From contig NZ_AMSF01000015.1 of the NCBI RefSeq assembly GCF_000334915.1, forward strand, positions 186,001 to 250,000: DNA of 64,000 nt, in the 5' to 3' direction. A program made the position numbers and the translations under genes. The number at the start of each line of letters is the position of its first letter. The stretch's first letter is position 1. This DNA comes from Dyella ginsengisoli LA-4. GTDB lineage: Bacteria; Pseudomonadota; Gammaproteobacteria; Xanthomonadales; Rhodanobacteraceae. Under the pieces are notes generated by a model. The model saw only the letters and a list, made by a program, of their open reading frames with translations, was not told the DNA's origin and did not search any database. Shown here one piece after another: positions 12,624 to 39,701 of this stretch.

Positions 12624-13573
12624 GCGCGAGCCAGTACCGGGTTCATGCCCAGGACGCTCCGGGCCGAGCGCGCATCATGATCCATCTGCGCCTTCAGTGC
12701 ATCCAGTCCGTCGAATTTCTGCTCGTCTCGCAGCTTGGCGACGAACTCCACCGCCATGCGCCGGCCGTAGAGATCGCCCTCGAAATCGAACAGGTGCACT
12801 TCCAGCAGCGGCTGGGTCACCTGGTTCACGGTCGGCCGTACGCCCAGGCTGGCCACGCCGGGCCAGGCGCACTCGCTATCGCCCAGGCCGACACGGACCG
12901 CGAAGATGCCCTGCACCGGGCTGACCCGGCTGTGCAGGTGGATATTGGCGGTGGGATAGCCCAGGGTCCGGCCCAGCTGGTTGCCGTATTCGACCTTGCC
13001 CTCGATGACGAACGGCCGCCCAAGCAACGGTGCGGCGGCGGCAAAATCGCCCGCGGCCAGCAGCTCGCGTACCCGGGTCGCCGAGACGCGCTCGTCGTGC
13101 AGCAACACCGGCGGCATGGTGCGGGCGACAAAACCCAGCTCCCGCCCCATCCGCTCCAGCAGCGCCACGTCGCCTGCCCGCTTGTGTCCGAAACGGAAAT
13201 CGCCACCCACCCACACTTCCCGGGCAGCGAGGCGATCGACCAGCACCTGCTGCACGAATGCCTGCGGTGCCATGGCCGCCAGCGCCGCGTTGAAGCGCAG
13301 CAGCAGCGCCTGCGAGATGCCGGCCGCGTCGAAGCCGATCAACTTCTCGCGAACGCTGGAAAGCCGGGGAACCGGCTGCGGCGAGAAATACGCGCGCGGC
13401 AATGGCTCGAAGCTGACGACCGCCGGCTCGCAGTCGAGCGCGGCGGCGCGTTCCCGCACTTCGGCGAGCAAGGCCTGGTGGCCGCGGTGCAGGCCATCGA
13501 ACGCACCGATCGCCACGACGCTTCCGCGTGGCGCCAAGCAGGGTCCCGCGACGTCCCGTGAAAGCTTGATCAT
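12620..13573 (-). CDS. ribF: Bifunctional riboflavin kinase/FMN adenylyltransferase
   Basis: RibF converts riboflavin to FMN and then FAD in the cytosol. The N-terminal adenylyltransferase shows AIGAFDGLHRGHQALL and later ERVSATRVRELL. The C-terminal flavokinase has the GRTLGYPTANI and GIFAV motifs. The 317-residue length is typical. I chose ATG 13573 (MIKLSRDVAG); the frame runs eight codons further up, but that would include the TATAAT box. The stop overlaps the start of the Ile-rich leader ORF. ribF before ileS is the standard gammaproteobacterial order. The mRNA may start at the ATG itself. Confidence 0.97.
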   Translation of the reverse strand: MIKLSRDVAGPCLAPRGSVVAIGAFDGLHRGHQALLAEVRERAAALDCEPAVVSFEPLPRAYFSPQPVPRLSSVREKLIGFDAAGISQALLLRFNAALAAMAPQAFVQQVLVDRLAAREVWVGGDFRFGHKRAGDVALLERMGRELGFVARTMPPVLLHDERVSATRVRELLAAGDFAAAAPLLGRPFVIEGKVEYGNQLGRTLGYPTANIHLHSRVSPVQGIFAVRVGLGDSECAWPGVASLGVRPTVNQVTQPLLEVHLFDFEGDLYGRRMAVEFVAKLRDEQKFDGLDALKAQMDHDARSARSVLGMNPVLARA

Positions 13574-13585
13574 CGGGCCATTATA
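13574..13585 (-). promoter_or_regulatory. TATAAT box six bases before ribF ATG (leaderless-type promoter)
   Basis: A perfect TATAAT (13585-13580) is followed by GGCCCG and then the ribF ATG. With the usual 6-7 base gap from -10 to +1, transcription would start at the A of the ATG. There is no Shine-Dalgarno and no clear -35. Confidence 0.5.
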
Positions 13586-30505: not shown

Positions 30506-32329
30506 TCAGCGTCCCCGCAGGAACAGCTTGTCCAGCTCACCGAGTCCAAGCTGGGTCCAGGTGGGACGACCGTGATTGCACTGGCCAGAGCGCTCGGTCG
30601 CTTCCATCTCTCGCAGCAGGGCGTTCATCTCGGGAATCGTCAGCCGGCGACCTGCGCGAACCGAGCCGTGACAGGCCATGGTGGAGAGCAGTTCGTTTTC
30701 CAGTTCCTGCAGGCGTCGCGAACTGCCGTGCAGGGCGAGTTCGGCCAGCACATCGCGGGTGAGCTGTTCCACGTCGGCGCCCTCGAGCAGCGCCGGAATC
30801 CGGCGAACCACGACAGCCGACGGGCCACTGCGGGACAGTTCCAGCCCCCAGGCAGCCAGCGCTTCGCCATGCTCCTCGGCGGCGGCCGCCTCTTTCGCGC
30901 TCACCGACAGGTTGAGCGGCACCAGCATGACCTGCGAACGCAGGTGATTGCCCTCCCGGGCCACCTTGAGCTTCTCGTAGGTGATGCGCTCGTGCGCGGC
31001 GTGCATGTCCACCAGGACGAGTCCATGCTCGTTCTCGGCCAGCACGTAGATCCCCTTCAGCTGCGCCAGGGCGTAGCCCAGTGGCGGCGCGCGCTCGGGA
31101 TCTGATTCGGCCATTGCCGGCAGCGGCGTGGCTGCCGAGCGATCCAGCGGCATCGGGCGCCCCTCGCCGAGCAGGGCGGCATAACCCGCCAAGGGCTCGT
31201 CGCGCACGCCGAGGCTCAACCGGCTCTGGCTGGCCGAACCAGGCCAGCCGCCCGAACCGGACGAAGCCGGCGCGCGGAACGGCATCGCCGCAGCCACCGG
31301 TTCGTCGACAGCCTCGATCGCCTGCCCCGCCCGCGTCTGCGCCAGCGCTTCGTGCAGGCTCCGGAACAGAAAGTCGTGGACCAGCCGCTGCTCGCGAAAG
31401 CGCACTTCGTGCTTGGCCGGATGCACGTTCACGTCGACACCGGCCGGATCCAGTTCCAGATAAAGCACGAACGCCGGATGGCGACCGTGGAACAGCACGT
31501 CCGCATAGGCCTGGCGCACCGCATGTGCCACCACGCGGTCGCGCACCAGCCGGCCGTTGACGTAGAAGAACTGCGAGTCGGCCTGTCCACGCGAAGCCGT
31601 GGGAAGACCGACCCAGCCCGACAGCCGCATGCCGGCGGCGGCGTGATCCAGATGCAGGCTCTGCGCGGGAAAGTTCTCGCCCAGCACGTCGGCAACCCGC
31701 ACCAGCATCGCCTGATCGTCACTTGCAGCCTTCCATACGCGCACCGGCTTGCCATTGTGGCTGAGCCGGAATTCCACGCGGCTGCGCGCCAGCGCCAGCG
31801 ACTTCAGCAGGTCGTCGATGTGCGCGAACTCGGTACGTTCGGCACGCATGAATTTCCGGCGCGCCGGCACGTTGTAGAACAGATCGCGCACCTCGACGCT
31901 GGTGCCGCGCGGGTGCTGCGCCGGACGCGCCGCCTGCAGCTTGCCGCCGTCCACCTCGATACGGAACGCGGCCTCGGCCTCGCGCTGGCGCGAGGTAAGC
32001 GCAAAGCGCGCCACCGAAGACACCGACGCCAGCGCCTCGCCGCGGAATCCCATGCTGGCGACATGCTCGAGATCGTCGAAGCTGCCGATCTTGCTGGTGG
32101 CGTGCGAGGCCACGGCGAGCGGCAACTCGTCCGGTGCGATGCCCACGCCATCGTCGCGCACGCGGATCAGCCGCGCCCCACCCTGCTCGATGTCCACCTC
32201 GACGCGCGTGGCGCCCGCATCGAGACTGTTTTCCACCAGTTCCTTGACCACCGAGGAGGGGCGCTCGATCACCTCGCCGGCGGCGATCTGGTTGATGAGT
32301 TCAGGGGGAAGTACGCGGATGACTGGCAT
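30506..32329 (-). CDS. mutL: DNA mismatch repair protein MutL with endonuclease motif
   Basis: MutL links MutS to strand incision. The N-terminal GHKL ATPase has [26 protein letters not shown] and [12 protein letters not shown]. The C-terminal domain has [12 protein letters not shown], a match to the DQHA(x2)E(x4)E metal site of nicking MutL proteins, plus ACHGSVRAG and CNHGRPTW. E. coli-type MutL lacks this site and needs MutH; the form here fits bacteria without MutH. The length is 607. The ATG at 32329 is preceded by TAAGCT and six bases with no Shine-Dalgarno, so the mRNA may be leaderless. The amidase gene lies upstream, as in many gammaproteobacteria (amiB-mutL). Confidence 0.97.
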
Positions 32330-32341
32330 CCGCGTAGCTTA
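32330..32341 (-). promoter_or_regulatory. TAAGCT box six bases before mutL ATG (leaderless-type promoter)
   Basis: On the minus strand TAAGCT (32341-32336) is followed by ACGCGG and the mutL ATG. The spacing puts +1 on the ATG, and no ribosome site is present. A clear -35 is not seen. Confidence 0.4.
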
Positions 32342-32376: not shown

Positions 32377-33837
32377 TCAGCCAGCCGGGATCGTCAGCAC
32401 CGAGCCGGCGCGCAGCGTGTCACCGCTGCCGCTGATGCGGTTGGCGTTCTTCAACGCGCCGACGCTGACACCGTACTGCCTGGCAATACTGCCCAGGCTC
32501 TCGCCGCGGGCGACCTTGTGCATGTCCTGCACCGACTCGTCCGCACGCTTGCCCGACGTCGCTCCGGTCGACCCGATCGACGCCAGCACGGCGCCATTGC
32601 GGCGAGCCGCCTGCGCAGCGAACCAGGTACCCGGCGGCGGCGTGGTCTCGAAGTAGTTGCGCACGCCGCCCATCACGGCTTCGGCCAGCTCGGTCTGGTG
32701 CTCCGGATCGCGCAGCTTGCGCTCCTCGGACGGATTGCTGATGAACGCGGTCTCGACCAGGATCGAGGGTACGTCCGGCGAGCGCAGCACCACGAAATTG
32801 GCGCGCTCCACGTAGCCTCGGTGGGTCGGCCCGAGCTTGCCCAGCGCCTTGAGTACATTGCCGGCGATCGACTCGCTGGCCTGCACCGCCCAACCCTGCT
32901 GCATGTCCAGCAATACCGAGGCGAGACTGTCGTCCTCGGAGGCCAGAGACACACCGCCGATCAGGTCGGAGCTGTTCTCGCGATCGGCCAGCCAGCGTGC
33001 CGCCACGGTGCTCTTGCCGCGGGAGGACAACACCCAGACCGAAGAGCCTTTGGCGTCACCGTTCCTGAAGGCGTCGGCATGGATCGAGACGAACAGGTCG
33101 GCGTTCTTTTCTCGCGCGATCTCGTAACGGCGCTTGAGCGGGATGAAGTAGTCGCCATCCCGCGTCAGCACCGCCTGCATACCGGGCTGCTTGTCGATCA
33201 GTGCCGCCAGCTTGCGCGCTACCGCGAGCGTCACGTTCTTTTCCAACGTGCCATGCGGGCCGTGCGCGCCGGGATCGACACCGCCATGGCCGGCATCCAC
33301 TGCCACGACCACCTTGCGCTCGCCGCCCATCTGCTCGGCCACCTGGCGCAGCGTCAATACCTCGTGCTTGTCCGCTTTGCTGACCGTGACCTTCGCCATC
33401 CGTGTCGCGGGTACGGAAGCCTTTGCATCGGCGCCCTTGGCTCCGTTCTGCGGATAGAGGTCCAGGACCAGACGGTAGCCGTAGCCGCCGCCCGGCTTGA
33501 GCATGAAGCTCTTGGGTTTCGTGCCGGCCGAGACATCCGCCAGAAGCTCCAGCCTGCCGCCGCGACGATGTGCGGTGATCCCTTTGAACAACCCCTGGGC
33601 CGAGGGCGCCGCGAAGGCCGACGCGAGGCGGTCATTGCCGAGATCGACACGGACCTGATCCCCGCGGGGCGTGATGTCGTAGCGGACCGGGCCGCTGAGA
33701 TCGAACACCACCCGGGTGTACTCAGGCCCGGCCCAGACCCGGGCCCCGCGGATCTCGGCCGCGCGGACGGGCGATGACAAGCCGGCAGCCGCAGCCACCA
33801 GCGCGCACAAGCCGAACCTGAACAAGGATGCCCTCAT
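32377..33837 (-). CDS. amiC: N-acetylmuramoyl-L-alanine amidase with AMIN, Amidase_3 and LysM domains
   Basis: The enzyme cuts the septal peptidoglycan amide bond so that daughter cells can part. From ATG 33837 there are 486 residues: a signal peptide (FGLCALVAAAAGLSSPVRA), then AMIN (GARVWAGPEYTRVVFDLSG). The Amidase_3 domain follows with zinc ligands in VDAGHGGVDPG, GTLEKN and VSIHADAF and the catalytic Glu in LVETAFISN. A C-terminal LysM ends the protein (HKVARGESLGSIARQYGVS). LASEDDSLASVLLDMQQ looks like the autoinhibitory helix relieved by EnvC/NlpD-type activators. The symbol is chosen by architecture; AmiB is equally apt. A longer frame upstream is not needed. Confidence 0.93.
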   Translation of the reverse strand: MRASLFRFGLCALVAAAAGLSSPVRAAEIRGARVWAGPEYTRVVFDLSGPVRYDITPRGDQVRVDLGNDRLASAFAAPSAQGLFKGITAHRRGGRLELLADVSAGTKPKSFMLKPGGGYGYRLVLDLYPQNGAKGADAKASVPATRMAKVTVSKADKHEVLTLRQVAEQMGGERKVVVAVDAGHGGVDPGAHGPHGTLEKNVTLAVARKLAALIDKQPGMQAVLTRDGDYFIPLKRRYEIAREKNADLFVSIHADAFRNGDAKGSSVWVLSSRGKSTVAARWLADRENSSDLIGGVSLASEDDSLASVLLDMQQGWAVQASESIAGNVLKALGKLGPTHRGYVERANFVVLRSPDVPSILVETAFISNPSEERKLRDPEHQTELAEAVMGGVRNYFETTPPPGTWFAAQAARRNGAVLASIGSTGATSGKRADESVQDMHKVARGESLGSIARQYGVSVGALKNANRISGSGDTLRAGSVLTIPAG

Positions 33838-33845
33838 GGGCTTGA

Positions 33846-33874
33846 ATTCAATCGCAGCCAACCTGTGATTGCAA
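33846..33874 (-). promoter_or_regulatory. Candidate promoter of the amidase gene
   Basis: TTGCAA (33874-33869) and TTGAAT (33851-33846) are spaced by 17 bases on the minus strand, with the ATG eight bases later. The -10 is imperfect, and the transcript would be nearly leaderless. Confidence 0.35.
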
Positions 33875-33884
33875 GCATTTTTCC

Positions 33885-33970
33885 TTTGGATATCCGCAAC
33901 CTGCACTGCATTCGTCAGGATGTGTCCAGAAGACGGCGGCAACCCACGCTTTTTCTGGCGGATATCCAAA
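33885..33970. promoter_or_regulatory. Paired 13-base inverted repeats upstream of the amidase promoter
   Basis: TTTGGATATCCGC (33885-33897) and GCGGATATCCAAA (33958-33970) are exact reverse complements. Each contains the palindrome GGATATCC, with centres 72 bases apart, about seven helical turns. Two operator sites bridged by a looped repressor is one reading. They lie in the only sizeable gap (177 bases) between tsaE and the amidase. Confidence 0.4.
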
Positions 33971-34014
33971 ACCAGAGAGGCCAACGAATCCCTTGGAAAA
34001 ACACAAGCTTAGCG

Positions 34015-34506
34015 TCAGCCTCGCGCCTGCACTGGCGTCTCCGGGCCCGCACCCAGGCGTTCAAGCAGCTGCTCGCCACGGACGGTGCGCGCGCTCAACC
34101 GGGCATGGCGTCCGGTTTCGGCATAGGCCAGCGCAAGCTCGACGTCGGGAGATGGAATGGCGCCCCGCCCGTGCTGCGGCCACTCGATCAGCACCACCGC
34201 ATCCGGCTCGCCCAGCGCGTCCACCCCGAGCCACTGCAGTTCGTCAGGATCGGCGATGCGATAGAGATCCAGATGCCAGGCCTGGCCGCGTTCGAGCGGA
34301 TAGTTTTCGACCAGGCTGTAGGTCGGGCTCTTGATCCGCCCCTTGACCCCCAGCGCCTGCAGCAGCGCACGCGCGAAGCTGCTCTTGCCCGCACCCAGCT
34401 CACCGCTCAGATGAAACACCGCCCCACGCTCCATCGCCGCACCCACGCACGAAGCCAGCCGTTGCGTAGCCCCCTCGTCGGGCAGCACGAAGGTGCGCTC
34501 AAGCAT
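34015..34506 (-). CDS. tsaE: tRNA threonylcarbamoyladenosine biosynthesis ATPase TsaE
   Basis: TsaE works with TsaB, TsaC and TsaD to make t6A37 in tRNAs that read ANN codons. The 163-residue protein has Walker A GELGAGKSSFARALL, then SPTYSLVENY, WHLDLYRIADPDE and VVLIEWPQ, the full TsaE signature. The ATG at 34506 overlaps the nnr stop by eight bases, the standard nnr-tsaE coupling. The amidase follows, as in the E. coli yjeF-tsaE-amiB-mutL order. Confidence 0.96.
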   Translation of the reverse strand: MLERTFVLPDEGATQRLASCVGAAMERGAVFHLSGELGAGKSSFARALLQALGVKGRIKSPTYSLVENYPLERGQAWHLDLYRIADPDELQWLGVDALGEPDAVVLIEWPQHGRGAIPSPDVELALAYAETGRHARLSARTVRGEQLLERLGAGPETPVQARG

Positions 34507-35986
34507 GGGCCGCCAGTCCGTTGGAGAGCCGCCGCAGTGGCGCCATCAGGTCACCTGCGACCATCCCGCGCTCGCCCTCCAGCGCGGCCGCGTCGCCTGC
34601 ACGCGCATGCAGGCCGACCCCCAGGCACGTGGCCTCCCACGCCGTCGCGCCCTGTGCGAGCAGCGCGCCGATCACCCCGGTCAGCACGTCGCCCATCCCT
34701 CCCGCGCCCATCCCCGGGTTCCCCCAGGGACAGACCGCCAACCGCCCATCCGGATGCGCAACGAGGCTGCCGGCCCCCTTCAGGACCACCACCGCACCGA
34801 AACGGCCGGCCAACTCGCGTACCGCGGCGAAACGATCCGACTGGACGGTGGCAACGTCCGTTCCCAACAGACGCGCGGCCTCGCCGGGATGCGGCGTCAG
34901 CACGGCTGCGCGGTCGAAGCGTCGTGGCTCGCGGGCGAGCAGGTTGAGACCATCGGCATCGAGCACCAGCGGCCGGCCGGAGTCGAGCGCGGTAAGCCAC
35001 AACGCGTGCCCCCAGGCAGCCTGACCAAGCCCCGGACCGACTGCCAGTACGTCGGCGCGACCGAGTAGCGGCTCCAGCGCCTGTGGCCCGTTCACTCCGT
35101 GCGCCATCAGCTCCGGACGCCCGGCGTTGAGCGCGGGCACGTGCCCGATGTGCGTGGCCACGCTGACCAACCCTGCCCCGGCGCGCAGCGCGGCCTCACC
35201 GCATAGCCGGATGGCTCCAGCCGTGCCCTGCTCGCCACCGACGACCAGCAGGTGGCCACTGTCACCCTTGTGCGCACTGCGTCGACGTGCCGGCAGGGCA
35301 TCGGGGCGCAACAACATCGCCGCAGGCGGCTGGCTTTCCCACAGCGCATCCGGCAGTTGCAGCGTGTCGAGCTCCAGCTTGCCGACCACGTCCGGACCGA
35401 CACCGGTGTAAAGGCCGCGCTTGGCGGCGATGAAGCAGACCGTTGTCGTCGCCCGCACCGCCGCACCGGGACAGATGCCGAGATCGGCATCGAGGCCCGA
35501 GGGGACATCCAGCGCCAGCACCGGCCGGCCGCTGCCGTTGATACGCTCGATGAGCGCCGCCACCGGTGCCCCGGGTGCGCGGTTCAGCCCGCTGCCGTAG
35601 AGCGCGTCCACATGGACGTCGGCCTCGGGCCATGCGGCCATGTCCTCGAGCAGGTGTACGCGTCCGCCGGCGAATTCGAAGGCGGTGCGCGCCTTCAGCG
35701 CATCGCCGGCGGCCTTGCCGGACACGGCGACCAGCTCGACCAGCATGCCGGCCTCGCGCGCCAGTGCGCCGAGCAGGTAGCCGTCGCCGCCGTTGTTGCC
35801 CGGCCCGCACCAGACGGCGATGCGTCGCGCCTGCGGCCAGCGGCGGCGCAGGCATGCCAGCGCCGCCGCTGCCGCCCGGCGCATCAGTTCGAAGCCGGGG
35901 ATGTCGAGCACCTCGATGGCATGGCGATCGAGTGCACGCACCTGGCCGACGGTGTAGAGCGCGTAGCGAGGGTCCGTGGCATCCAT
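34499..35986 (-). CDS. nnr: Bifunctional NAD(P)H-hydrate epimerase/dehydratase
   Basis: Nnr repairs damaged NAD(P)HX. The N-terminal epimerase domain has WCGPGNNGGDGYLLG and LDVPSGLDAD. The C-terminal ADP-dependent dehydratase has KGDSGHLLVVGGEQGTAGA, LTPHPGEAARLL and NPGMGAGGMGDVLTG. The 495-residue length is normal. The start ATG 35986 is six bases after a perfect TATAAT with no ribosome site, which suggests a leaderless mRNA. It heads nnr-tsaE-amidase-mutL and is divergent from queG, with only 49 bases between the two ATG codons. Confidence 0.97.
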   Translation of the reverse strand: MDATDPRYALYTVGQVRALDRHAIEVLDIPGFELMRRAAAAALACLRRRWPQARRIAVWCGPGNNGGDGYLLGALAREAGMLVELVAVSGKAAGDALKARTAFEFAGGRVHLLEDMAAWPEADVHVDALYGSGLNRAPGAPVAALIERINGSGRPVLALDVPSGLDADLGICPGAAVRATTTVCFIAAKRGLYTGVGPDVVGKLELDTLQLPDALWESQPPAAMLLRPDALPARRRSAHKGDSGHLLVVGGEQGTAGAIRLCGEAALRAGAGLVSVATHIGHVPALNAGRPELMAHGVNGPQALEPLLGRADVLAVGPGLGQAAWGHALWLTALDSGRPLVLDADGLNLLAREPRRFDRAAVLTPHPGEAARLLGTDVATVQSDRFAAVRELAGRFGAVVVLKGAGSLVAHPDGRLAVCPWGNPGMGAGGMGDVLTGVIGALLAQGATAWEATCLGVGLHARAGDAAALEGERGMVAGDLMAPLRRLSNGLAAHA

Positions 35987-35998
35987 CGGCGGATTATA
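35987..35998 (-). promoter_or_regulatory. TATAAT box six bases before nnr ATG (leaderless-type promoter)
   Basis: A perfect TATAAT (35998-35993, minus strand) is followed by CCGCCG and the nnr ATG. No Shine-Dalgarno fits in this gap. A -35 consensus is not obvious. Confidence 0.55.
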
Positions 35999-36023
35999 GG
36001 CAGGCGGCAGCGCCGCGGCGATT

Positions 36024-36035
36024 TAGACTAGCCGC
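36024..36035 (+). promoter_or_regulatory. TAGACT box six bases before queG ATG (leaderless-type promoter)
   Basis: TAGACT (36024-36029) is followed by AGCCGC and the queG ATG at 36036. It mirrors the nnr box across a 25-base centre, so the two genes share one compact divergent promoter. Confidence 0.5.
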
Positions 36036-37109
36036 ATGCGAAGCCCTGCCCCCGCCATCGACTATGCCCTGCTGGCCCGCTCCATCAAGCAATGGGCACG
36101 CGACCTCGGCTTTGCCGAAGCCGGCATCAGCGGAGTGGACCTGGCCGAGGACGAGGTCCATCTGCAACGCTGGCTGGCCGAAGGCCACCACGGCGAAATG
36201 GACTACATGGCGCGTCACGGTGCCAAGCGCAGTCGCCCCGGCGAGCTGGAACCTGGCACCCGGCGGGTGATCTCGGTGCGTATGGACTACGCGCCGCCGG
36301 ATATCGACCGTGCATGGTCGGTGATCGAAGACGGCGAACTTGGCTACATCTCGCGCTACACGCTGGGACGCGATTACCACAAGCTGCTGCGCCAGCGCCT
36401 GCAGAAACTGGCCGACCGCATCCGCGCGGAAATCGGCGATTTCGGCTACCGCGCCTACGTCGATTCCGCTCCGGTCCTGGAAAAGGCACTGGCGCGCAAT
36501 GCCGGCCTGGGCTGGATCGGCAAGCACACCGTGCTGATCCATCGCCGGGCCGGCTCGTATTTCTTTCTCGGCGAGCTCTACACCGATCTTCCACTACCGG
36601 TCGACACACCGGCCAGCGAGCACTGCGGCAGCTGCCGGCGCTGCCTGGATGTCTGCCCGACCCAGGCAATCGTCGCACCCTACCGGCTCGACGCACGGCG
36701 CTGCATTTCGTACCTGACCATCGAGCTGAAAGGCAGCATCCCCGAAGAACTCCGTGCGCCGATGGGCAATCGCATTTTCGGCTGCGACGACTGCCAACTG
36801 GTCTGCCCCTGGAACAAATTCGCACAGACGACGGCCGAACCCGATTTCGCACCACGGCATCGGCTCGACGGAAGCAAGCTGGTCGAACTGTTCGCCTGGA
36901 GCGAGGCCGAATTCCTGCAACGAACCGAGGGTATGGCGATCCGCCGCACCGGCTACGAGGGCTGGCTGCGCAACATCGCGGTAGCCTTGGGCAATGCACC
37001 GCGGTCCGACGCGGTGCGCACCGCGCTGCTGGCACGCGCGGACCATCCGTCGGACCTGGTGCGCGAGCACGTAGCCTGGGCGCTGGCCCGGCAGGACGAG
37101 ACGAGGTAG
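36036..37109 (+). CDS. queG: Epoxyqueuosine reductase QueG
   Basis: QueG carries out the last step of queuosine synthesis in tRNA, using cobalamin and two [4Fe-4S] clusters. Cluster motifs are CGSCRRCLDVCPT and CDDCQLVCPWNK, with a further Cys in RRCISYLTIELKG. The HEAT-like C-terminus (YEGWLRNIAVALGN) binds tRNA. The length of 357 is typical. Its start follows a TAGACT box by six bases and has no ribosome site. In E. coli queG sits next to nnr (yjeF) in the same divergent order. A small DUF4440-like gene follows three bases after its stop. Confidence 0.97.
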   Translation: MRSPAPAIDYALLARSIKQWARDLGFAEAGISGVDLAEDEVHLQRWLAEGHHGEMDYMARHGAKRSRPGELEPGTRRVISVRMDYAPPDIDRAWSVIEDGELGYISRYTLGRDYHKLLRQRLQKLADRIRAEIGDFGYRAYVDSAPVLEKALARNAGLGWIGKHTVLIHRRAGSYFFLGELYTDLPLPVDTPASEHCGSCRRCLDVCPTQAIVAPYRLDARRCISYLTIELKGSIPEELRAPMGNRIFGCDDCQLVCPWNKFAQTTAEPDFAPRHRLDGSKLVELFAWSEAEFLQRTEGMAIRRTGYEGWLRNIAVALGNAPRSDAVRTALLARADHPSDLVREHVAWALARQDETR

Positions 37110-37112
37110 CCG

Positions 37113-37508
37113 ATGAGCGACACGATGAAGACCATGCCGCGACTGGAAGACGTGCTGGCTGAACTGCGCGAGCGCGAGCCGATCTTCCATCGCCCCGAGT
37201 CCGACGCCGGACCGGCCGACGGCGAGCGCATCACCGAGGAGACGTTCTGGGAAATCGGCGCCTCCGGCCAGCGTTACAGCCGCGCCGAGGTGCTCGACGT
37301 GCTGAGCCAGCGGGTCCGTCACCCGGTGAAGGAGCAATGGCGCGCCGAAGGCTTCGAGTGCCACCCGCTCTCGCCCAGCCTCTACCTGCTGACCTACGTG
37401 CTGTGGCAGGAGGAGCGCGGCAGCCGCCGCACGACGCTGTGGCGCCGCACGGTCGACGGCTGGAAGGCGGTGTTCCACCAGGGCACGCTGCTGACGCAGC
37501 GCGCGTGA
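37113..37508 (+). CDS. DUF4440-like (NTF2-fold) small protein
   Basis: The 131-residue cytosolic protein starts three bases after the queG stop and is surely co-transcribed. The pattern ELREREPIFHRPES, ITEETFWEIGASGQRYSR and YLLTYVLWQEE...RRTTLWRR resembles DUF4440/SnoaL-like NTF2-fold proteins. The family match is by pattern recognition and not certain. No catalytic motif stands out and function is unknown. A second ATG five codons in is possible. It is convergent with panD, with 16 bases between the stops. Confidence 0.65.
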   Translation: MSDTMKTMPRLEDVLAELREREPIFHRPESDAGPADGERITEETFWEIGASGQRYSRAEVLDVLSQRVRHPVKEQWRAEGFECHPLSPSLYLLTYVLWQEERGSRRTTLWRRTVDGWKAVFHQGTLLTQRA

Positions 37509-37524
37509 CCCGCGGGCCGTCGCC

Positions 37525-37911
37525 TCAGGCGGCGGCCATCTGGGTGGGAATCGAGCGGTTGGTGTGCGAGATGCCGTTCTTCGCGTCCACGTAGACCAGC
37601 ATCGGCTGGTGCGCTTCGGCCTCGGCCTCGGACATCTGGCTGAACGCGGCAATGATGATCAGGTCGCCCGGCTGCGCGCGGTGGGCTGCGCTGCCGTTCA
37701 CCGAAATGATGCCCGAGCCGGCCTCGGCTTTCAGGGCATAGGTGACGAAGCGCTTGCCGTTGTTGATGTTCCAGGCGTGGATCTGCTCGTACTCGCGGAT
37801 GCCCGACGCTTCGAGCAACAGGCTGTCGATCGCGATCGAACCTTCGTAATGGAGCTCGGCGTGGGTCACCGTCGCGCGGTGGATCTTGGCCTTGAGCATG
37901 TTCAGGTGCAT
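37525..37911 (-). CDS. panD: Aspartate 1-decarboxylase (pyruvoyl enzyme precursor)
   Basis: PanD makes beta-alanine from aspartate for pantothenate. From ATG 37911 the precursor has 128 residues. The self-cleavage site Gly24-Ser25 in HYEGSIAID falls exactly at the canonical position, which fixes the start. [16 protein letters not shown] and NGKRFVTYA are typical. A further 13 codons upstream in frame are not needed. It is the last gene of the pcnB-folK-panB-panC-panD run, 86 bases after panC. Confidence 0.96.
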
Positions 37912-37997
37912 GGCATCACTTCCAGCAGGTACGGCCTGCGTAGCCCTCAATTATCGAGTCGCCGGCCGTGCACTGCAACACCGCCGGAGGGAACCGC

Positions 37998-38858
37998 TTA
38001 CGTGGGGACGGCTCCGTCGAACAGCAAGTTGTCGATCAGTCGGGTGCTGCCCAGGCGCGCCGCGACCAGGCCAACCAGGCCGGTGCGCTCGCCTGCCGCC
38101 GGCTCGGCGAGATCGTCCGCGCGGCGGATCGCCACGTAATCGGGGACGAAACCGGCACGCTCGAGCTGCCCGGCCGCCGCCTGCTCCAGCACCCTGGGTA
38201 CATGCCCCTTGCCGAGCATGTCGCGCATCTGCACCAGCACCTGGTGAATACGCGGCGCCAGCGCGCGCTCGGCGTCGCTCAGATACTGGTTGCGCGAACT
38301 CAGTGCCAGCCCGTCCGCGGCACGCTGGGTGGGTGCGGCGATCACCTTCACCGGTAACGCCAGGTCGCGCACCATGCGCTCGATCACCTTCAGCTGCTGG
38401 AAGTCCTTCTGGCCGAACACGGCCAGATCCGGCTGCACCAGGTTGAAGAGCTTGCACACCACCGTCGCCACGCCATCGAAATGGCCGGGGCGATGCGCGC
38501 CCTCCAGCGTCTCGGTGATCTGCGGCACGCTCAACCGCACCGTGTGCTCCGCACCGTATGGATACATGGTCGCCACGTCGGGCGCGAACAGCAGGTCGCA
38601 ATCGTGCTCGGCCAGACCGGCCTGGTCCTGTACCAGCGTGCGCGGATAGCGGGAGAAATCCTCGTTCGGGCCGAACTGGGTGGGATTCACGAACACGCTG
38701 GCAACGACCCGGTCGGCGCGCGCCCGCGCCAGCCGCACCAGCGCAAAGTGCCCGGCGTGGAGATTGCCCATGGTGGGCACGAAGCCCACGGTCTGACCGG
38801 CGGCACGCCAGCCGCGAACGACAGCGCGAAGCGCCCCGGCATCATGCACGGTCTGCAT
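37998..38858 (-). CDS. panC: Pantothenate synthetase
   Basis: PanC joins pantoate and beta-alanine with ATP. The 286-residue protein has FVPTMGNLHAGHFALV (HIGH-type), SVFVNPTQFGPNEDF, VFGQKDFQQLKVI and ALSSRNQYLS (KMSKS-type). Length and motifs match E. coli PanC. The gene starts 12 bases after panB ends, so the two are co-transcribed. Confidence 0.98.
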   Translation of the reverse strand: MQTVHDAGALRAVVRGWRAAGQTVGFVPTMGNLHAGHFALVRLARARADRVVASVFVNPTQFGPNEDFSRYPRTLVQDQAGLAEHDCDLLFAPDVATMYPYGAEHTVRLSVPQITETLEGAHRPGHFDGVATVVCKLFNLVQPDLAVFGQKDFQQLKVIERMVRDLALPVKVIAAPTQRAADGLALSSRNQYLSDAERALAPRIHQVLVQMRDMLGKGHVPRVLEQAAAGQLERAGFVPDYVAIRRADDLAEPAAGERTGLVGLVAARLGSTRLIDNLLFDGAVPT

Positions 38859-38870
38859 CGAGGATGGCCT

Positions 38871-39701
38871 TCAGTTGAAGCAGTGCTCGGGAGCGGGGAA
38901 GGCGCCGCTGCGCACCTCGTCGACAAATGCCGAGATGGCTGCAGACACCGAATCGCGTCCCTGCAGGTAGTCCTTGCTGAATTTCGGTCGCTTGCCGGGC
39001 GTCACGCCCAGCAGATCGTGCAGCACCAGCACCTGTCCGTCGCAATGTGGACCGGCCCCGATGCCGATGGTCGGAATCGACACCGCCGCGGTGATCCGCT
39101 CGGCAAGCGCCACCGGCATGCCCTCGAGCACCAGCAGGTCGGCGCCGGCAGCCTCGACAGCCCGGGATTCATCCAGCACGCGACTGGCAGCCTCTTCCTC
39201 GCGCCCCTGAATGCGGAAGCCGCCGAATTTGTGGACCGACTGCGGCGTCAGGCCCAGATGGGCACAGACTGGTATGGCCCGAACGGCCAGCGCGTTGATT
39301 GCGTCCAACACATGCGCCGCACCACCCTCGATCTTGACCATCGAGGCATTGCCTTCACCCACCAGCCGGGCACCGGCCTCCAGCGCATGCGCCGTATCGC
39401 GATCACTCATGAACGGCAGATCCGCCACCAGCAGCGTAGCGTGCAACCCACGGGACACCGCGGCGGTGTGGTAGACCATCTGGTCCAGGGTGACCGGCAG
39501 GGTGCTGGGGTGGCCCTGAACCACCATGCCGAGGGAGTCTCCGACCAGCGCGACGTCGACGCCGGCGACCTCGAGTTGATGGGCGAAGCTCGCGTCGTAG
39601 GCGGTGAGCATGACGATGCGGCGACCTTCGGTCTTCATGGCACGCAGGGACGGGACGGTCACCGGCTTGCGGTCGGAGGCACTGGCGTTTTGCGCGTACA
39701 C
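38871..39701 (-). CDS. panB: 3-methyl-2-oxobutanoate hydroxymethyltransferase
   Basis: PanB makes ketopantoate, the first committed step of pantothenate synthesis. The 276-residue protein has VMLTAYDASFA and VGDSLGMVVQGHPSTLPV (metal and substrate binding), MVKIEGG, HLGLTPQSVHKFGG and TIGIGAGPHCDGQVLV. The start is GTG at 39701 with AGGAAA nine bases upstream. The first 12 residues (VYAQNASASDRK) are a short extension before the core. A 96-base gap separates it from folK. Confidence 0.97.
   Translation of the reverse strand: MYAQNASASDRKPVTVPSLRAMKTEGRRIVMLTAYDASFAHQLEVAGVDVALVGDSLGMVVQGHPSTLPVTLDQMVYHTAAVSRGLHATLLVADLPFMSDRDTAHALEAGARLVGEGNASMVKIEGGAAHVLDAINALAVRAIPVCAHLGLTPQSVHKFGGFRIQGREEEAASRVLDESRAVEAAGADLLVLEGMPVALAERITAAVSIPTIGIGAGPHCDGQVLVLHDLLGVTPGKRPKFSKDYLQGRDSVSAAISAFVDEVRSGAFPAPEHCFN

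Follow-up and report, generated by a model that had tools for sequence, protein, structure and literature searches.

Leaderless genes of a well-described type carry a TANNNT box whose first T lies about 12 bases before the start codon (PMC3160421, BMC Genomics 2011). Bidirectional promoters, according to PMC10268837 (Microbiology 2023), possess a near-symmetric -10 element, with transcription starts usually 18 bp apart, this distance being the commonest because position -7 of one strand then falls on -11 of the other. In Escherichia coli, yjeS (queG) and yjeF (nnr) are listed as type 5' in the table of abundant double-stranded RNA (dsRNA) clusters of PMC7373196 (mBio 2020).

The same two genes were analyzed in a stretch of 64,000 nucleotides of Dyella ginsengisoli LA-4 (contig NZ_AMSF01000015.1, positions 186,001 to 250,000), hereafter the window, whose numbering is used throughout. 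Between nnr and queG, two opposed TANNNT boxes each lie six bases from an ATG, and this arrangement quite probably represents a conserved, -10-driven pair of opposed leaderless promoters that would be mutually exclusive by geometry.

Predicted promoter elements in the window

The two genes are divergent, with start codons at 35986-35984 (nnr, reverse strand) and 36036-36038 (queG, forward strand). Their names, proposed in an earlier note made from the sequence alone, were borne out by curated family searches, which assigned QueG to TIGR00276 (508 bits) and Nnr to TIGR00196 and TIGR00197, both over the cut-off. QueG reaches 85% identity to named contigs, which would place the host in the family of Rhodanobacter, Dyella, Frateuria and Luteibacter. 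The motifs described in that note, TATAAT-N6-ATG for nnr and TAGACT-N6-ATG for queG with 49 bases between the ATGs, are exact on the sequence; the predicted start As are 50 positions apart and the two boxes are separated by 25 bases. Its statement that no Shine-Dalgarno (SD) sequence is present also held, as none of five SD-like four-mers (GGAG, GAGG, AGGA, AAGG and GGGA, sought at -18 to -5) precedes either start, although this is weak evidence, such a four-mer preceding the first ATG in just 68 of 194 contig genes.

No standard sigma70 promoter with a -35 element was found for either gene. In the window, no TTGACA-like hexamer occurs 15-19 bases upstream of either box, and a simple promoter scan of positions 33000-39500 requiring a -35 found none, for 0.5 expected. 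Across 69 family loci with separated boxes, mean matches to TTGACA at spacers of 16, 17 and 18 bases were 1.43, 1.25 and 1.04 for queG and 1.46, 1.23 and 1.13 for nnr, without signal and within the range of the means at other spacers. Likewise, no conserved TTGACA signal was detected at these spacers in 25 loci with overlapping boxes. The guess of the earlier note that the promoters may be -10 driven fits the absence of this signal in the 69 loci. The TGCC that precedes the nnr box (35999-36002) is well kept in the same loci (T in 61%, G in 52%, C in 88% and C in 94%); an extended -10 (TGn) was considered for these bases and ruled out, the T and G lying one base too far upstream.

Between called genes of the 324-kb contig, the frequency of TANNNT is 0.0026 for each position on each strand, and for any divergent pair the chance of both boxes lying at exactly six bases is about 7 in a million; such pairs represent 57 of the 237 adjacent gene pairs. 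Among the 238 genes identified on the contig with a simple purpose-made caller, nine have TANNNT-N6-ATG, none has the box at seven bases, and at most three have it at any other distance up to 26. TANNNT-N6-ATG starts therefore seem to be used at a few per cent of the genes of this genome. The whole genome was also searched for opposed boxes separated by 0-30 bases, each six or seven bases from an ATG (not both seven), and this pattern was found at nnr/queG and at one other place, between frames of 43 and 8 codons (reversed control, 0).

Conservation of the boxes in related genomes

The number of bases between TANNNT and ATG (d) was counted over offsets 0-40 for every in-frame ATG at most 36 bases from the homology start, with the other offsets serving as control. 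A picker of the most upstream ATG was rejected, as chance-like upstream ATGs hid many boxes and both boxes were then found in only 57 of 129 family loci. In total, 257 loci were taken from genomes of the genus, family and order and from named contigs; 32 without an nnr start beside queG were dropped, and the remaining 225 yielded 210 distinct loci. The family set covers 144 of the 147 genomes with a match (G093, G119 and G165 were left out), while G053 and 18 of the 28 newly drawn matches were left out of the order set. Among the 86 genomes with a match in the class set, two were already present, 68 contributed new loci and 16 were left out (G233 and others, most of them broken or among the weakest matches).

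For queG, TANNNT was found at d=6 in 109 and at d=7 in 26 of the 199 loci with an ATG (135 together), compared with a mean of 1.6 and a maximum of 5 at offsets other than 5-8. For nnr, the corresponding values were 113 and 43 of 205 loci (156 together), with a mean of 2.4 and a maximum of 9 at the other offsets. Both boxes were present in 121 of the 210 distinct loci, and their pairing is not obligatory. Within the family of Dyella, d=6 and d=7 accounted for 77 and 13 of 123 queG starts and for 86 and 17 of 128 nnr starts, and the 129 loci comprised 83 with both boxes, 24 with the nnr box only, 7 with the queG box only and 15 with neither. Conservation of TANNNT-N6-ATG, proposed in the earlier note as a check, was thereby confirmed, with boxes at six or seven bases in most family loci and in many beyond the family.

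Neighboring genes served as controls in the 80 named-contig loci (usable starts), where the box was found at d=6 in 23 and d=7 in 17 of 55 nnr starts, and in 28 and 18 of 78 queG starts. At d=6, the controls gave 2 of 63 for tsaE, 1 of 48 for the amidase gene, 0 of 28 for panC and 0 of 16 for panB; tsaE and panC are the better controls, as one residue was missing from the start of the amidase query, and the count was limited to ATGs although panB has GTG as its start codon in the window. Further down the nnr strand, mutL had the box at d=6 in 22 and at d=7 in one of 49 relatives. In the window, mutL is preceded by TAAGCT-N6-ATG (32327-32341, reverse strand), a second conserved start of leaderless type downstream on the nnr strand.

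TATAAT-N6 and TAGACT-N6 are both kept in the four genus genomes examined, one of which has a spacer four bases longer. Among the congeners examined, the queG discriminator differs in sequence and stays six bases long, and the inter-box length in the three is 25, 25 and 29 bases. In the 83 two-box family loci, for which boxes were sought at offsets 5-8, the gap between the ATGs was 20-374 bases; six or seven bases separated the queG box from its ATG in 83 loci and the nnr box from its ATG in 80. The position of each box is therefore fixed to its own ATG and not to the other box, which fits what a leaderless start needs.

It is unlikely, in our estimation, that only the TATAAT of nnr is a working promoter in the window, with queG transcribed from another site. 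As a -10, TAGACT is weak, and relatives lack the queG box more often than the nnr box, 43 of the 210 loci having only the nnr box and 16 only the queG box. However, TAGACT-N6 is kept in the four genus genomes despite changed surroundings, and the commonest queG box of the family is TACAAT (51 of the 83 two-box loci).

Geometry of the box pair

The distance between the boxes in the 83 two-box family loci ranges from overlap to 349 bases. By eye, and with shared descent uncorrected, these distances seem to be gathered at 8-11, 15-16, 24-26 and 33-36 bases, loosely corresponding to helix turns. Overlapping opposed -10 boxes were found in 25 loci (L271, L273 and L060 excluded), with ATGs 20-24 bases apart and an overlap of two bases in 17 loci and of four bases in 8; two Xanthomonas contigs possess the two-base form, CAT-N7-ATTCTATACT-N7-ATG.

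In a FastTree phylogeny (379 columns, 118 two-box loci, midpoint rooted, support values not considered), overlap and separation required 7 changes, compared with a mean of 22.9 and a minimum of 18 in 500 shuffles, so that this state follows descent. The tree shows descent of the two states and not which came first. All two-box loci of the Rhodanobacter/Dyella/Luteibacter group are separated, by 8 to 349 bases. L271 and L273, with box distances of -36 and -33 judged to reflect wrong ATG pairs, were left out of the tree, as was L060, a TATNATA locus with a spacer identical to that of L311.

Beyond the order, the analysis covered 68 loci at class level together with E. coli; no divergent nnr was found in 22. 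The other 47 comprised 13 with both boxes, 9 with the nnr box only, 7 with the queG box only (including E. coli) and 18 with neither. Nine of the 13 two-box loci, in nine families, carry one TATNATA formed by both boxes, which share five of its bases; the start-codon As are 18-21 bases apart (exactly 18 in L306), and the translated starts resemble QueG on one side and Nnr on the other. The interpretation of the spacer as a promoter pair in the earlier note is supported, and the merged and overlapping boxes of relatives go beyond what it saw.

Somewhat less probable than an idle queG box is the possibility that both promoters lie inside the opposite gene, with overlapping antisense leaders, and that the TANNNT boxes are minor or secondary. 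The start codons of the pair overlap in E. coli K-12 (CATG), and the yjeS/yjeF 5'-overlap dsRNA cluster tabulated in PMC7373196 points to internal promoters in that species. Internal promoters, however, would not put TANNNT six or seven bases from both ATGs across the widely varying spacers of the family, and no SD-like four-mer precedes nnr or queG in the window. That the boxes form part of a site bound by a regulator of the two genes, and not by polymerase, is very improbable: nnr-side conservation does exceed six bases, with the two Cs before the box noted above, but each box is fixed to its own ATG whatever the distance to the other, and mutL has the same offset in another upstream region.

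Proposed mechanism

The ribosome takes the 5' AUG of a leaderless mRNA, sigma70 polymerase can start from a -10 without a -35, and a bound RNA polymerase covers approximately 70 bases. From the boxes, their ATG distances in relatives, the lack of a conserved -35 and the lack of SD sequences in the window genes, we infer where transcription starts, leaderless translation and mutual exclusion. The nnr/queG spacer would consist of two opposed promoters of sigma70 type, each with only a -10 box and no visible -35; polymerase with sigma70 would recognize each box alone and begin transcription with the A of the ATG. The resulting mRNAs would both lack a leader, with ribosomes binding the 5' AUG directly, and the two transcripts would share no overlap, in contrast to an excludon-like pair, whose 5' ends overlap. 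Given this footprint, a polymerase bound for one gene would cover the other promoter across the 25 bases between the boxes, and the two directions could not be served at once; the competition between promoters would follow from geometry only.

Several points weigh against this reading. At least one box is missing in 89 of the 210 loci, 30 of them having neither, and the boxes are more than 40 bases apart in 8 of the 83 two-box family loci. The loci are related and their counts are not independent, so that they measure retention rather than events. Outside the order, the offset peak is lower and less sharp (queG: d=6 in 3, d=7 in 11 and d=8 in 5 of 41; nnr: d=6 in 13 and d=7 in 8 of 43). TAGACT agrees with TATAAT at four of six bases only. 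The scarcity of SD-like four-mers on the contig counts here as well, and among relatives 13 of 55 for nnr and 4 of 78 for queG have such a four-mer ahead of at least one candidate ATG. Finally, no mapped transcription start of nnr or queG, in this organism or a relative, was found in the open-licence literature as covered mainly by titles and the starts of abstracts.

A broader proposal is evenly balanced between true and false: that in many Gammaproteobacteria the nnr/queG spacer is a conserved minimal two-gene promoter, whose tightest form is one seven-base symmetric TATNATA with both starts at, or within a base or two of, the ATG As, yielding two leaderless housekeeping mRNAs, while the lineage of the window has two separate, still mutually exclusive boxes. 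If this is true, the orientation of polymerase at one site would determine in what ratio NAD(P)HX repair, together with downstream tsaE, the amidase gene and mutL, stands to queuosine synthesis.

Features of the locus and further candidate sites

The features of the locus are listed in Table 1.

Table 1. Genes and predicted promoter elements of the nnr/queG locus, in window coordinates.
Feature	Position	Strand	Remarks
nnr (yjeF)	34499..35986	-	bifunctional NAD(P)H-hydrate epimerase/dehydratase; upstream of same-strand tsaE, amidase gene and mutL
nnr discriminator CCGCCG	35987..35992	-	six bases, -10 box to ATG
nnr -10 box TATAAT	35993..35998	-	predicted transcription start at A of ATG (35986)
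inter-box stretch	35999..36023	.	25 bases; no hexamer resembling a -35 at spacers of 15-19 bases, for nnr or for queG
queG -10 box TAGACT	36024..36029	+	predicted transcription start at A of ATG (36036)
queG discriminator AGCCGC	36030..36035	+	six bases, -10 box to ATG
queG, epoxyqueuosine reductase	36036..37109	+	

Elsewhere in the window, TATAAT-N6-ATG occurs at 13571-13585 (reverse strand), ahead of a gene that we take to be ribF-like. Two more TANNNT-N6-ATG genes lie on the same contig outside the window, at 276902 and 40673 (both forward strand), presumably encoding glutamyl-Q tRNA(Asp) synthetase and NAD synthetase, respectively. The two synthetases would parallel queG in its link to queuosine and nnr in its link to NAD, but the nine genes are too few to tell.

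Tight box pairs were also searched without regard to gene identity. Overlapping boxes of the ANTATANT type were found at 29 places, compared with 14 in reversed controls (101 genomes), and the TATNATA-type pattern at 80 places compared with 56 (114 genomes). Among 22 of the 29 ANTATANT places examined, seven are flanked by frames of 100 codons or more on both sides, and three of the seven are nnr/queG; the single TATNATA-type place in the genome of the window lies between frames of 33 and 14 codons. As these searches return many chance-like places, tight geometry alone is no evidence, and it is the position between nnr and queG that is. Two genes starting 21 bases apart from one ANTATANT element were observed in two genomes from a different family within the order (L295 and L296, 1501-1527); they are presumably peroxiredoxin-like and patatin-like, and the element is a candidate for a further shared leaderless promoter. 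In L298 (1501-1526), two genes that we assume to be ubiE-like and arsC-like start 20 bases apart from one such element.

Comparison with known systems

Each half of the pair is, on its sequence features, predicted to be an ordinary TANNNT leaderless gene. Both window genes share the TANNNT core at the start-codon distance of the genes described in PMC3160421, and both are without an SD sequence, a weak test given the contig-wide scarcity of such four-mers. What differs from those genes is that two starts stand back to back here and that the pair is conserved across families; the word "divergent" does not occur in the main text of that paper.

With the bidirectional promoters of PMC10268837, nnr/queG shares opposed -10 boxes and a -35 that is poorly conserved or absent, the difference being that both of its products are predicted leaderless mRNAs. 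The window itself has neither overlapping boxes nor starts about 18 bp apart, features that some relatives have or nearly have: TATNATA possesses the symmetry of a bidirectional promoter, and the As 18-21 bases apart in nine families are close to the 18 bp described there. The window pair is thus best described, as far as its motifs indicate, as two putative leaderless promoters and not as a strict bidirectional promoter, which some relatives would be, or nearly.

Bidirectional promoters are usually viewed in connection with the antisense RNA they produce, and leaderless genes singly; nnr/queG appears to combine both and is kept in many lineages. In the open-licence literature, covered mainly by titles and the starts of abstracts, we found no conserved protein-gene pair, leaderless on both sides, sharing one symmetric -10. 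The pair offers a natural series of geometries, merged (TATNATA), overlapping by four or two bases, or separated by 8 to 349 bases, that could be used to ask how far apart opposed -10 boxes must be for both to be active, and whether leaderless starts arise between divergent genes too close together to accommodate leaders.

The gene pair and its divergent order are the same in E. coli, which, as judged from its entry in PMC7373196, takes the opposite way: there the 5'-overlapping transcripts form dsRNA, whereas the leaderless starts predicted in the window would leave no overlap.
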